A stretch of DNA of 27,826 bases from the NCBI GenBank assembly GCA_016215705.1, contig JACRIR010000114.1, positions 1-27,826 on the forward strand, in the 5' to 3' direction. Origin of the DNA: Candidatus Poribacteria bacterium. GTDB lineage: Bacteria; Abyssobacteria; SURF-5. Shown piece by piece: positions 1 to 23,462 of the stretch; position 1 is the first letter of the stretch; each line of letters starts with the position of its first letter. A program made the position numbers and the translations under genes. A model generated the notes under the pieces. The model did no database searches, had not been told where the DNA came from, and saw only the letters and a program-made list of their open reading frames with translations.

Positions 1-659
1 CGAGATTGTCGAGGGTGGTGCTGCCAGGCTACCCGCATCATATTACGCAGCGCGGGGTGAGGTCGATGCGGATATTCCGCTCGAAGAAGGACCGCGAGGA
101 ATATTTGCGGCTGCTGTCGGAACAGGGTAAACGCTTCGGCGTAAGCTTCGTGGCCTATTGCCTCATGACAAATCACGTCCATTTGATCGCGGTTCCGGAG
201 GAATCCGACAGTTTGGCGCGTGGGATTGGAGAAGCGCATCGACTTTACACGCGGTCGGTAAACTTCAAGCAGGACGTACGAGGGTATCTGCTTCAGGGAC
301 GCTTTTATTCGTGTCCGCTCGATAATCGCCACTTGGTGGCGGCAATCCGATATGTCGAGCGCAATCCCGTGAGGGCGCAGATGGTTGAGCACGCATGGGA
401 TTATCCGTGGTCGAGCGCGGCATTTCGGGTGGGTTTGCGGACGCAGGACGCGCTTGTGAAAGAGACCGATCCATTCGAGTTGGGCCTCGACTGGAGGGCG
501 CTGCTTCAGAGTGATCCGGAAGAAATGAATCTGTTAAAGGAGAGGTTGCGGACAGGCCGTCCCTGCGGAGACGCTGATTTTGTGGAGAAGGCGGAGGAGT
601 TGACAGGCCGCTGGCTGAAACCCCGGCACGCCGGCCGCCCGAAAAAGAAGAAGAAATAG
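1..659 (+). CDS. REP-associated Y1 transposase, copy 1 (5'-truncated by window edge)
   Basis: Single-strand DNA transposase of the TnpA_REP (RAYT, IS200-like) family. The HUH metal-binding motif is visible as HVH in 'MTNHVHLIAVP', and the likely catalytic tyrosine lies in 'RYVERNPVRA'; the C-terminus is a lysine tail. Compared with the intact second copy, only the ATG and part of codon 2 are missing, so the true start lies a few bases before the window and the reading frame resumes at base 3. The two proteins differ at about six residues (for example FVAY/FMAY, EESD/EEAD, RAQM/RAKM). Such proteins are known to recognise and cut hairpin-containing REP sequences. The TAG stop falls inside a 26-nt repeat that forms the end of the element. 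Family call is firm; activity is inferred only from the intact motifs. Confidence 0.93.
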   Translation, partial: RLSRVVLPGYPHHITQRGVRSMRIFRSKKDREEYLRLLSEQGKRFGVSFVAYCLMTNHVHLIAVPEESDSLARGIGEAHRLYTRSVNFKQDVRGYLLQGRFYSCPLDNRHLVAAIRYVERNPVRAQMVEHAWDYPWSSAAFRVGLRTQDALVKETDPFELGLDWRALLQSDPEEMNLLKERLRTGRPCGDADFVEKAEELTGRWLKPRHAGRPKKKKK

Positions 660-14173: not shown

Positions 14174-14218
14174 ATCCATTGTGGGGACACCATGCCGCAT
14201 GCTGTCCCCACAATGGAT
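14174..14218. repeat. Palindrome with GGGGACA core (intergenic)
   Basis: Perfect 16-nt arms, ATCCATTGTGGGGACA (14174-14189) and its reverse complement (14203-14218), surround a 13-nt centre. It starts 15 bp after the glycosyltransferase stop. It could slow or end transcription, but there is no T-run, so it does not look like a standard terminator. Confidence 0.85.
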
Positions 14219-18224: not shown

Positions 18225-20927
18225 ATGAATACGCACAAATATAGACGTCTTGATACCCCCTTTGAAGTCGTCCACTTCATGAACCATTCCCATATTGACC
18301 ACACGTGGTGGGACTCACCTGAAGCCTGCAAGAGACGCAACGACGAGATCATCAATGGCGTGCTCGACGCTTGCGCCTCCAACCCGCAATTCAAGTTTTC
18401 ATATGAAACGACTGCGGCGCTTATGGACTATCTGACAAGGTATCCGCAAAGGAATGCGGAAATAAGAAAACTGCTTGATACACGCCGCCTCGATATCGGC
18501 GGTCTTTTCGCATCGGCCAATGTCGACGCCTGTTCGGAAGAAACCATCGCTCGCAATTTCTATTTCGGCAAAAGATGGCTTGAAAAGACATTCGGATATT
18601 CTCCCGGGATCGCGAAGGAATATGACACGCCCGGCCATGCTCTTCAGACGCCTCAACTTGTGAGGAGCGCGGGAATGGATGTATTCGTGATTTCGCGCGG
18701 ACCACGGGGATGCTTCTATTGGGTGGGACCGGACGGCGCCGAAATACTCACGTGCAGCATACCATATAATTGGTCGTACTGGCGAAAACTCGGGGTAAGC
18801 TTCGAGGAGACAGAAAGGCGACTGCCGGACGAGCTTCAAAAGGGAGCGGCAAGTTATCATGGCGCGAATCTCCTTGTTCCCGACGGCGACGACATGACAG
18901 TGCCGAATCTGCGACTTGTCGAAATCGTCAATCGCTGGAACGAGGCCTATGACCGGCCAAAACTGGTACTATCCACGCTCGATGAATTCGCTGATTCGAT
19001 TCGACCGCTGAAATTACCGCGTCGTTCAGGTGACATGCCCAACTTGTGGGTGGGAATCCATTCGCTGCAGATTGAGGCGACACGCGACAGCAAGCTGGTT
19101 CAAAACATGTTACCTATTGCCGAGGCGCTGCATGTTCTGTTCTCCATCTCTAAGAACGACTTCGGAACGTATCCGGCAGAGGAGATAGACTCTTGCTGGA
19201 TGCGCGCTCTTCTTGTGGCCGACCACAATTGGGGGGGTAGAGATAAGGCGCGGCACGGTCCCGAGGGAGACGAATATAAACAGGGTCTCGCTGCGGCTGC
19301 CCTGCGCGATTGCAGGAGGCTGGTCGAACGCGCATTTGACGGACTGTCAAACGCGCTTATGGGGAAGGAAGCGCCGACGGATATGCCGGTGCTCGTTTTC
19401 AATCCGGTCGCTTGGGAGAGGACTGATGTTGCCTCCGTCGAGGTGAAATGCGGAGTTCCCGGACTGGGAGCGATTGAGGTCGTTAATCACAAGAATGAGC
19501 CCGTGCCGTTCGGGATTGCTGTTCTCGAAAAGCACCGTGATGACACAATCAAGCGCGCACGCGCGGCATTCCTGTGCTGCGACCTGCCGTCATTGGGATA
19601 CTCGACGTATTACATAAAACCGGTAGTAGAGAGTGCATCCGCCAGTTCTGTACTCGCCGATTCACCCGCACATGGTGACGGACAATCTCTGGACGTAGGG
19701 GCACGGCGCGCCGTGCCCCTACAACAGAATATCGAATCTGTCAAGAACGAGACGAATGTCCCACAATCCATTGATGTAGGGGCGCAGCATGCTTCGTCCT
19801 CCAATGGAGCCATCGAAAACCAATTCTACCGCATCGAATTCTCCGAAGACGGCAGTTGCATCAAGAGTCTTTACGACAAAGAGCTTGGCCTCGAATTGGC
19901 CGGAAAGTTCAAGACGTCGCTCGGACCGTTCGAGTTTGAGTTCGGAATGTTCGAATTGTTTGGTATCGGTCTCAAACTGACCGTGCCCGACCAAAGTTTC
20001 TTCGAGAATCCTGAGAACGAAGGCACAGGCGAATCCGTCGGACCGACCGGCGAGGTTTGGCGAGCTTCAGATTATCCGGCGACCATCAATGTTGAGAACA
20101 ACGGCAGCCTGTCGAAATCGATTATTGCGGAGGGCGGATTCGTCAACTCGAAGCGTCGCCAGAAAGTTGCGCTCTACGAGGGGTTGAAACGGATCGATTT
20201 GCATCTCGAACTCGATTGGGGCGGAAAGCCGGATACAACCGTCTATCTGCAAATGCCTAACACGCTGATGAATGGCCGGAAGTTTATCGACGTGCCGTTT
20301 GCGGTCCATCGCGACGGCAACGAACTAATGGACTTCTGGATTGACGAATCGCTTCCCGTCAAGTTCAAGTTACGCGGCATGCAGGATTGGGTTTGTTTCG
20401 AAGACGGTGGCCATGGCCTCGCCATCGCAACCCGCTGGCCGATGATTGACTTCACCCTGGTTCCCGCGTTTCCTCTGGTGTGGACAAACAACGACAGCGG
20501 ATTCTTCTTTGGCGAGCGATACCTGCAAAAAGGCAAACACGTCTTCTCCTTCAGTCTCACGTCCTACAAAGGCAATTGGCTGGAGAACGGAATCCACCGA
20601 TGGGGAAAGCAATGGCCGAAACCGCTGTTGAGTTACATCTGCCAAACCGAGCCAATCGAGTCTGCGCGCTCATATCTATCGGTCGACGCGAAGAACATTA
20701 TCATCTCTGCTCTGAAAAAAGCTCATGACGAGGATGCAATCGTCGTCCGTCTGTACGAAATCGCCGGAAAAAAGACCGATGCGCGCTTGCACACCTCGTT
20801 CCCCCTAAAACGCGCCACTCTCACAAACCTCATTGAAACCGCTTCGCGGAATCTCATTCTTCGACAAGGTTTCCTCAACCTCTCCTTCAATCCTTTCGAA
20901 GTCAAGACTGTGAAACTGTATCCGTAA
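18225..20927 (+). CDS. GH38 family alpha-mannosidase with palindrome-encoded linker
   Basis: A 900-residue glycoside hydrolase of family 38. The zinc-binding motif is 'HSHIDHTWWD' (His21, His23, Asp25), and the likely nucleophile is Asp134 in 'YDTPGHALQTPQL'. A helical mid region with 'RDKARHGPEGDEYKQG' precedes the beta-sandwich domains, which begin about residue 530 with 'ENQFYRIEFSEDGSCIKSL'. It cleaves alpha-mannosides; no signal peptide is present, so it is probably cytoplasmic. Unusually, residues of about 465-530, joining 'YSTYYIKPVVE' to the sandwich, are low in conservation-like features and are coded partly by two palindromes (19695-19722, 19767-19808). They read through in frame and probably form a flexible loop. 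No signal for an alternative start is seen at ATG 18225. Confidence 0.93.
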   Translation: MNTHKYRRLDTPFEVVHFMNHSHIDHTWWDSPEACKRRNDEIINGVLDACASNPQFKFSYETTAALMDYLTRYPQRNAEIRKLLDTRRLDIGGLFASANVDACSEETIARNFYFGKRWLEKTFGYSPGIAKEYDTPGHALQTPQLVRSAGMDVFVISRGPRGCFYWVGPDGAEILTCSIPYNWSYWRKLGVSFEETERRLPDELQKGAASYHGANLLVPDGDDMTVPNLRLVEIVNRWNEAYDRPKLVLSTLDEFADSIRPLKLPRRSGDMPNLWVGIHSLQIEATRDSKLVQNMLPIAEALHVLFSISKNDFGTYPAEEIDSCWMRALLVADHNWGGRDKARHGPEGDEYKQGLAAAALRDCRRLVERAFDGLSNALMGKEAPTDMPVLVFNPVAWERTDVASVEVKCGVPGLGAIEVVNHKNEPVPFGIAVLEKHRDDTIKRARAAFLCCDLPSLGYSTYYIKPVVESASASSVLADSPAHGDGQSLDVGARRAVPLQQNIESVKNETNVPQSIDVGAQHASSSNGAIENQFYRIEFSEDGSCIKSLYDKELGLELAGKFKTSLGPFEFEFGMFELFGIGLKLTVPDQSFFENPENEGTGESVGPTGEVWRASDYPATINVENNGSLSKSIIAEGGFVNSKRRQKVALYEGLKRIDLHLELDWGGKPDTTVYLQMPNTLMNGRKFIDVPFAVHRDGNELMDFWIDESLPVKFKLRGMQDWVCFEDGGHGLAIATRWPMIDFTLVPAFPLVWTNNDSGFFFGERYLQKGKHVFSFSLTSYKGNWLENGIHRWGKQWPKPLLSYICQTEPIESARSYLSVDAKNIIISALKKAHDEDAIVVRLYEIAGKKTDARLHTSFPLKRATLTNLIETASRNLILRQGFLNLSFNPFEVKTVKLYP
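19695..19722. repeat. Perfect 28-nt palindrome inside the GH38 coding region
   Basis: Arms GTAGGGGCACGGCG (19695-19708) and its exact reverse complement (19709-19722), with no spacer. In the gene it codes for about 'VGARRAVPL' (residues 491-500) without breaking the frame. Its outer GTAGGGGC matches intergenic members at 21121-21146 and 23371-23395. Confidence 0.93.
19767..19808. repeat. Degenerate palindrome inside the GH38 coding region
   Basis: Arms TCCATTG (19767-19773) and CAATGGA (19802-19808) enclose GTAGGGGCGCAGCATGC followed by a degraded return arm. Its outer part resembles the 14174-14218 palindrome (ATCCATTG) and its inner part the GTAGGGGC family. It codes in frame for about 'IDVGAQHASSSNG'. 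Confidence 0.65.
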
Positions 20928-21014: not shown

Positions 21015-21160
21015 TATGTCGGGCGCGATGAATCGCGTCCCTACAGCGTTGTTTTGCTCATGCCTCGCGAAAATCGGGGACACGATGCGGCATCGTGTCC
21101 CCGATTTTCTTCATTCATGTCTGTAGGGGCGCAATTCATTGCGCCCGTGTGAGTTTCATA
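21001..21160 (-). repeat. Composite repeat, copy I (inverted relative to copy II)
   Basis: Read on the minus strand it has the same module order as 23358-23462: ATGAAA-TCAC, then the GGGCGCAAT/ATTGCGCCC hairpin (21127-21146), CTACAGACATGAAT, then TGTAGGGACGCGATTCATCG, then GCTGTCTGGTTG. The last 45 bases (21001-21045) match copy II at about 41 positions. Unlike copy II it contains an extra block of roughly 60 bases with the 41-nt palindrome at 21069-21109. Confidence 0.85.
21069..21109. repeat. Perfect 41-nt palindrome with GGGGACA core
   Basis: 20-nt arms (GAAAATCGGGGACACGATGC and its exact reverse complement) around a single central G at 21089. It sits inside composite repeat copy I and is absent from copy II. 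No coding role. Confidence 0.95.
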
Positions 21161-22079: not shown

Positions 22080-22817
22080 TCAGGAATCCATATCGTACCA
22101 AATCTGTTCCAGTAATTTCCAGTGGTCTTCCGTGATTGACGAGAGGTTCTCGTATTCGCCCAGCAATTGCTGAATCCATTTTAGGAAACGCGTGTTGGCG
22201 GCCAGGAAGGGTCTTGCGCCCGATTCGCGGAGCCACTGACTTACAGTGTGCTCAGTGCCCGGACACCATGAACTAGCGCCTTGGAAAATTGGGGACACGA
22301 TGCCGTCCCGCCAGCGGCGGGATGTCCCCAATTTTCCGGGTTGCGCGCACAAAGGCTGCCTGAAGAACCACTGGCGTCTGTTTGCGATTGTGACGCAGCC
22401 GAGGGGATGTAAGCGACACATGCCCGGCCTGTCGGCGTAAATCGTGCAGAGGCGTTTGCCGTCACGTGGTGGCGCGAGGAATTCGCAGACATTCTTACCT
22501 CGTTCCTTCTTCTGAAATTTGAGAGTGGCAATTGGCACGACATCGTTTGCAGGCAGCCCGAACACCTCGAAAAGGTCGGCGATGGGCGCAAATCCAAACA
22601 CCTTCTTGAAGGACTCGCGCTTTATTCCTATTGTGCCACGGGCTCTAAGTTCTGCGGTTGAAAGGCCGGTGGCCCTGCGGAGGCGGAGGATATCGTAGGG
22701 GCTGAGGATAATTCGGTACTCGCTGCAGCAGCGCCCGCAGGCTTCGCACTCGAACCGGAAGGAGGACCCTCGGCGCAGGAAAGTAATCTCATCATCTTTT
22801 CGTATTAGGTTTGTCAT
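22080..22817 (-). CDS. YkgJ-like cysteine-cluster protein with palindrome-encoded insert
   Basis: A 245-residue protein with the family-defining C24-x2-C27-x2-C30-C31 ('FECEACGRCC') and further conserved cysteines in 'NVCEFL', 'LCTIYADRPGMCRLHPLG', 'PLC' and 'SSWCPG'. The family (UPF0153/YkgJ) is thought to bind zinc or an iron-sulfur cluster; its reaction is unknown. Between the last two cysteine motifs, residues 'GKLGTSRRWRDGIVSPIF' are coded exactly by a 55-nt palindrome (22283-22337), so this stretch is probably a late insertion that kept the frame. A TATAAT-type promoter lies upstream on the minus strand. It is on the opposite strand to all genes outside the flanking inverted repeats. 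Confidence 0.88.
   Translation of the reverse strand: MTNLIRKDDEITFLRRGSSFRFECEACGRCCSEYRIILSPYDILRLRRATGLSTAELRARGTIGIKRESFKKVFGFAPIADLFEVFGLPANDVVPIATLKFQKKERGKNVCEFLAPPRDGKRLCTIYADRPGMCRLHPLGCVTIANRRQWFFRQPLCAQPGKLGTSRRWRDGIVSPIFQGASSWCPGTEHTVSQWLRESGARPFLAANTRFLKWIQQLLGEYENLSSITEDHWKLLEQIWYDMDS
22283..22337. repeat. 55-nt palindrome inside the YkgJ-like coding region
   Basis: Perfect 15-nt arms, GGAAAATTGGGGACA (22283-22297) and its reverse complement (22323-22337). The centre holds a second hairpin, TCCCGCC-AGC-GGCGGGA (22306-22322). It shares GGGGACACGATGC with the 41-nt palindrome at 21069-21109. It is translated in frame. Confidence 0.93.
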
Positions 22818-23357: not shown

Positions 23358-23462
23358 ATGAAAGTCACCAGGGCGCAATGAATTGCGCCCCTACAGACAT
23401 GAATCGAGAAATCCTGTAGGGACGCGATTCATCGCGCCCGACACGTGCTGTTTGGTTGTGGC
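23358..23462 (+). repeat. Composite repeat, copy II
   Basis: Plus-strand order: ATGAAAGTCAC, hairpin GGGCGCAAT/ATTGCGCCC (23371-23390), CTACAGACATGAAT, then TGTAGGGACGCGATTCATCG (from 23415), then GCTGTTTGGTTGTGGC to 23462. It is an inverted copy of 21001-21160 but lacks the 41-nt palindrome block. It ends 39 bp before the acyl-CoA synthetase start. Confidence 0.85.

Follow-up and report, generated by a model that had tools for sequence, protein, structure and literature searches.

In-frame copies of a probable mobile double-foot REP palindrome in the inter-domain linker of a GH38 alpha-mannosidase-like gene

In the window analysed here, the whole stretch of 27,826 nucleotides on contig JACRIR010000114.1 of a Candidatus Poribacteria bacterium, a GH38 alpha-mannosidase-like gene contains two palindromes between its domains (Table 1). 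These are most probably (about 85%) copies of a mobile double-foot REP that have been tolerated in a flexible linker. A sequence-only reading of the window had described a perfect 28-nt palindrome and a degenerate one in frame in this gene, and both were confirmed. The encoded protein carries the Pfam domains GH38N (PF01074), GH38C (PF07748) and GH38C2 (PF17677).

Table 1. Positions in the window of the host gene, its linker and the repeats within the linker.
Feature	Position	Strand	Remarks
GH38 alpha-mannosidase-like gene, insertion host	18225..20927	+	open ORF, 900 aa
Inter-domain linker	19635..19811	+	residues about 471-529; from codon alignment with orthologues L049 and L050 and from pLDDT
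Palindrome 1 (PAL1), double-foot REP (assigned by anatomy) GTAGGGGCACGGCGCGCCGTGCCCCTAC	19695..19722	.	in-frame peptide VGARRAVPLQ
Palindrome 2, decayed	19766..19808	.	outer arms TCCATTG (19767-19773) and CAATGGA (19802-19808) enclosing GTAGGGGCGCAGCATGCT (begins 19776); reads as SIDVGAQHASSSNG
Flank motif TGTCCnRYAAT, here TGTCCCACAAT	19757..19767	+	common to intergenic palindromes; 5' of palindrome 2

The same reading predicted that homologues would show a gap at residues about 465-530. Two same-family GH38 orthologues, from two genomes and 56-71% identical in their best pieces, bear this out: alignment with both ends at residue 471-472 and restarts at 526-527, with only 7-8 residues in between. 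By codon alignment, counted by eye, the linker has 60 residues here as against 13-14 in both orthologues. The palindromes thus occupy a stretch without counterpart in the relatives, and by this comparison it is an insertion. The divergence of the orthologues is too great for the exact junctions to be placed, so that one compound event and two separate ones both fit. In an AF2 model (14 sequences; mean pLDDT 76), residues 470-526 have pLDDT values of 23-34 and are flanked by strands at 458-468 and 529-531; as modelled, the linker is a disordered loop between two structured domains.

Repeats can give false joins, and the 28-mer of PAL1 has more than 35 copies in this genome. Misassembly at the repeat might therefore have joined two pieces and left an in-frame palindrome that is an artefact of the metagenome. 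This is very improbable: the frame is open throughout, both halves of the gene lie contiguous and in the right order in one orthologue of each of the two same-family genomes, and further conserved genes in independent genomes contain the repeat in frame, as described below.

PAL1 is a perfect palindrome of 28 nt, with arms of 14 nt and a loop of 0. The longest arm obtained by chance was 10 nt in 60 Markov-1 simulated windows and 9 nt when the gene was shuffled synonymously 300 times; PAL1 is not a product of chance. Its folding energy as single-stranded DNA is -15.2 kcal/mol (z -4.8). Palindrome 2 forms a hairpin no stronger than those of shuffles (z 0.25) and is recognisable by sequence, not by folding. 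Intact or near-intact relatives of it are present in the same genome (C238:14305 and C161:5380), and on the latter contig the GTAGGGGCGCAGCATGCT core follows a copy of the first palindrome at a distance of only 22 nt. The motif TGTCCnRYAAT, which was found in 10 of 92 genomic palindrome flanks and in 3 of 5668 background pieces, lies 5' of palindrome 2, and this suggests that at least the insert carrying palindrome 2 was longer than the palindrome alone.

Both palindromes had been assigned to families also seen between genes. For GTAGGGGC the assignment holds, and the family is by no means confined to this gene: the genome contains 53 GTAGGGGC...GCCCCTAC palindromes on many contigs, most of them the identical 28-mer, and a reversed-pattern control gave 0. 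For ATCCATTG it is weak, since in the sequence examined the outer arms of palindrome 2 have a single further occurrence, on the GGGGACA-type palindrome at 14174; of the flanks that palindromes share, TGTCCnRYAAT is the informative one. Palindromes of the GGGGACA type are located in the window at 14174-14218, 21069-21109 and 22283-22337, and the terminal repeats of the RAYTs in the window are their probable relatives. Canonical single-foot REPs (GTAGGGGCGCAATTCATTGCGCCC) are also present, at 21123-21146 and on the minus strand near 23390, and this family occurs in several other loci of the same genome.

The surroundings of 52 palindromes were examined; the GH38 gene apart, these palindromes lie between genes, in short ORFs that lack support or in what are probably leaders. 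Copies within genes are rare in this genome, the GH38 case being the only convincing one. Many GTAGGGGC palindromes are central in two multicopy element families of about 110 bp (types A and B; e.g. L012 and L009). Membership of PAL1 in either type was tested and rejected. The idea that the RAYTs in the window have the GTAGGGGC repeat at their termini was likewise rejected, as those RAYTs are flanked by TATTATGTCCCCGGAATA. The window had no match in Rfam, and a literature search for the GTAGGGGC sequence returned only primers and unrelated matches.

The palindromes might instead be functional in the gene, either as an mRNA hairpin that slows translation between the domains or through a useful linker peptide. 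The hairpin of PAL1 is very stable and the palindrome is still perfect, in keeping with such a role. However, palindrome 2 has decayed and lost any folding beyond that of shuffles, the GH38 orthologues do without palindromes, the repeat has unrelated genes among its hosts and lies for the most part outside genes, and the model shows the peptide as disordered. A function is thus quite unlikely, and the insertion is probably tolerated rather than useful.

The exact 28-mer was found in at least 109 stretches from more than 10 phyla in an exact-match scan with one genome per species. The matches listed include Planctomycetota, Nitrospirae, Deltaproteobacteria, Betaproteobacteria, Acidobacteria and Anaerolineae, further Patescibacteria, Omnitrophica, Latescibacterota, Spirochaetaceae and Fibrobacter, and others; the named isolates among them are Aquaspirillum serpens and Pelovirga terrestris. 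In other phyla the flanks of the 28-mer are mostly unique sequence. Host genes, counted by Pfam support and not by annotation, contain the 28-mer or its variants in frame and encode DNA polymerase I (L157), RecO (L149), a histidine phosphatase (L106), PMT-type glycosyltransferases (L105 and L111), a CoA-enzyme activase with two in-frame palindromes (L146) and an Fe-S reductase (L101, 5135-7222) with four in-frame sites, three of them intact palindromes and one a remnant. Many long ORFs with a palindrome near the start (e.g. L099 and L148) were excluded, since they are probably leaders that are not translated.

Some of these hosts have orthologues close enough for the change in length to be read. 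In the DNA polymerase I gene a palindrome of 28 nt corresponds to a net gain of 15 nt relative to a 75%-identical orthologue, and in the Fe-S reductase palindromes of 29 nt correspond to net gains of 21 and 18 nt. At these three sites, about 8-13 native bases were lost with the insertion, immediately or subsequently, and the frame was thereby restored. In addition, the palindromes of host genes lie in phase 0 (VGA..) in 12 of 13 cases, or in 7 of 8 genes (p 0.035), a preference that is suggestive only.

Three related planctomycetes carry the Fe-S reductase (L101, L274 and L275). A 91%-identical orthologue of the L101 gene has one site empty and a different palindrome at two further sites, at the same codon; L275 bears an unrelated CCCCCTTTAATAAAGGGGG palindrome at one site. 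Since the type of palindrome differs at the same codon between such close orthologues, it may tentatively be proposed that double-foot REPs in host genes are still being exchanged, the arrival of one replacing a few native bases and its type later being swapped, and that the enzyme loop would serve as a reusable landing site. This is possible, if rather less likely than its alternatives taken together.

A candidate transposase was found through genomes in which the 28-mer lies within a Y1 transposase gene (Aquaspirillum, Electronema and Electrothrix). Of the 47 other genomes with the 28-mer among the matches listed, 38 have a relative detected by a profile built from these transposases. Across 386 diverse genomes, sampled at up to a few per family and so not fully independent, palindrome and transposase occurred together in 52, the palindrome only in 26, the transposase only in 43 and neither in 265 (odds ratio 12.3, p 1.8e-19). 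A strict palindrome lies in frame between the HUH motif and the catalytic Tyr in 27 of 58 transposase loci, and most of the remaining loci have an apparently decayed palindrome between the two. In other genomes palindromes also flank tnpA, and several loci have both inner and flanking copies; in the six loci of this kind, the inner and flanking palindromes match in type more closely than under any of the 719 other pairings (1/720 permutations). The transposase alignment (A2) shows the motifs MPNH[FVIL]H, WQ and Y...NNP. By anatomy, the palindromes and the associated transposase fit double-foot REPs and TnpA-REP of subclass 2.4.

A TnpA of this type was not found in the 92% complete assembly of the window's genome (G000) at E<=1e-10 or 1e-15; a sister genome (G002) has one, and G001 has two. 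The expected transposase may have been lost, may be absent from the assembly or may have been replaced by another RAYT. Three RAYTs are present in this genome, none of the subclass 2.4 type and two of them flanked by different repeats. The latter are two near-identical Y1 transposase genes in the window (6-659 and 1744-2412), of the GGGGWSAS TIR type and with inverted TATTATGTCCCCGGAATA adjoining; the intervening 1 kb or so includes a leucine-rich-repeat-like ORF. The third (L086, 56-1030; G000:C225) has a DnaA-like C-terminal domain, as described for subclass 2.1 TnpA.

These circumstances invite the proposal that the two TIR-type RAYTs of the window moved the GTAGGGGC palindromes, which would have ridden within elements bounded by TGTCC...AAT. 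TGTCCnRYAAT resembles the TGTCCCCGGAAT repeat beside these RAYTs and recurs adjoining palindromes, and the palindrome-centred elements of about 110 bp exist in multiple copies in this genome, from which the subclass 2.4 TnpA could not be recovered. The proposal is nevertheless doubtful, as the palindrome goes with the other TnpA type when genomes are compared, its flanks are unique in most other phyla, and most palindromes in this genome are without TGTCCnRYAAT.

Under the preferred reading, that of a tolerated mobile REP, the GH38 palindromes would derive from a small non-autonomous element that is thought to be moved as a single-stranded hairpin by a TnpA-REP of the subclass 2.4 type. Copies would usually settle between genes, and two would have come to rest in the long flexible linker of GH38, with a portion of a larger element of the intergenic type accompanying the second. 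The repeat carries TAG in one of its three phases and its length is not divisible by three, from which we infer that selection spared only those variants in which the net length preserved the frame. A plain 28-nt insertion would shift the frame, and the need for an extra change counts against this reading. The peptide VGARRAVPLQ...VGAQHASSS, presumably translated, would lie within the disordered loop; most likely it is neutral.

A mobile palindrome that is identical over 28 nt in more than 10 phyla can thus become protein-coding sequence, and such insertions are a source of new linker peptides. Annotation calls for some caution, as VGARRAVPLx is the signature of a repeat and not a protein motif. 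Further, cases with close relatives make the frame-keeping of insertions directly testable.

Among known systems, the nearest is that of the double-foot REPs associated with subclass 2.4 TnpA, with GTAG at one end and CTAC at the other (Quentin et al., 2018; PMC6006769). These REPs are long palindromes with 5' GT[AG]G and 3' C[TC]AC ends, as is PAL1 (GTAG...CTAC), and the transposases associated with the palindrome have the subclass motifs NH[IFV]H, WQ and Y..NNP. REPs flanking tnpA and inserted in frame within it were described in that work, which cites insertions into other genes from others. A palindrome inside tnpA is thus already published and not new; the same arrangement, flanking and in frame within tnpA, was found here in other genomes, and in both studies the palindrome is scattered over many phyla. 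The present case differs in that a copy lies in a host enzyme gene and in that the same assembly yielded no cognate tnpA, a gene that is expected though not defining. Single-strand cleavage and transfer by cognate TnpA have been demonstrated in vitro for other REP groups (PMC8266576).

Intragenic GTAG REPs are similarly short and lie in frame in genes, sometimes twice per gene; repair genes are among their hosts, and linkers have been suggested as tolerant sites (Di Nocera et al., 2013; PMC3733652). Members of that superfamily are mainly intergenic, dispersed and multicopy, as are the 53 copies in this genome, but their GTAG, at one end of a stem-loop, stays unpaired, whereas here it pairs with CTAC. 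The palindrome is also central in multicopy elements of about 110 bp, in the manner of MITEs or BIME-like intergenic mosaics; PAL1, however, lies in neither of these elements, and only palindrome 2 has a related flank motif.

The sequence-only reading had likened the GH38 palindromes to Rickettsia palindromic elements. The analogy stands, as these too are palindromic repeats inserted into protein genes whose frame they leave intact, but membership of the family does not. The rickettsial units have a CGTC tag at one end and no known transposase (discussed in Di Nocera et al., 2013; PMC3733652), whereas the ends here are GTAG and CTAC, CGTC is absent, the anatomy is that of a double-foot REP and no relation in sequence was seen. 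This type of insertion is known in outline, and the GH38 gene is a clear new case of it.
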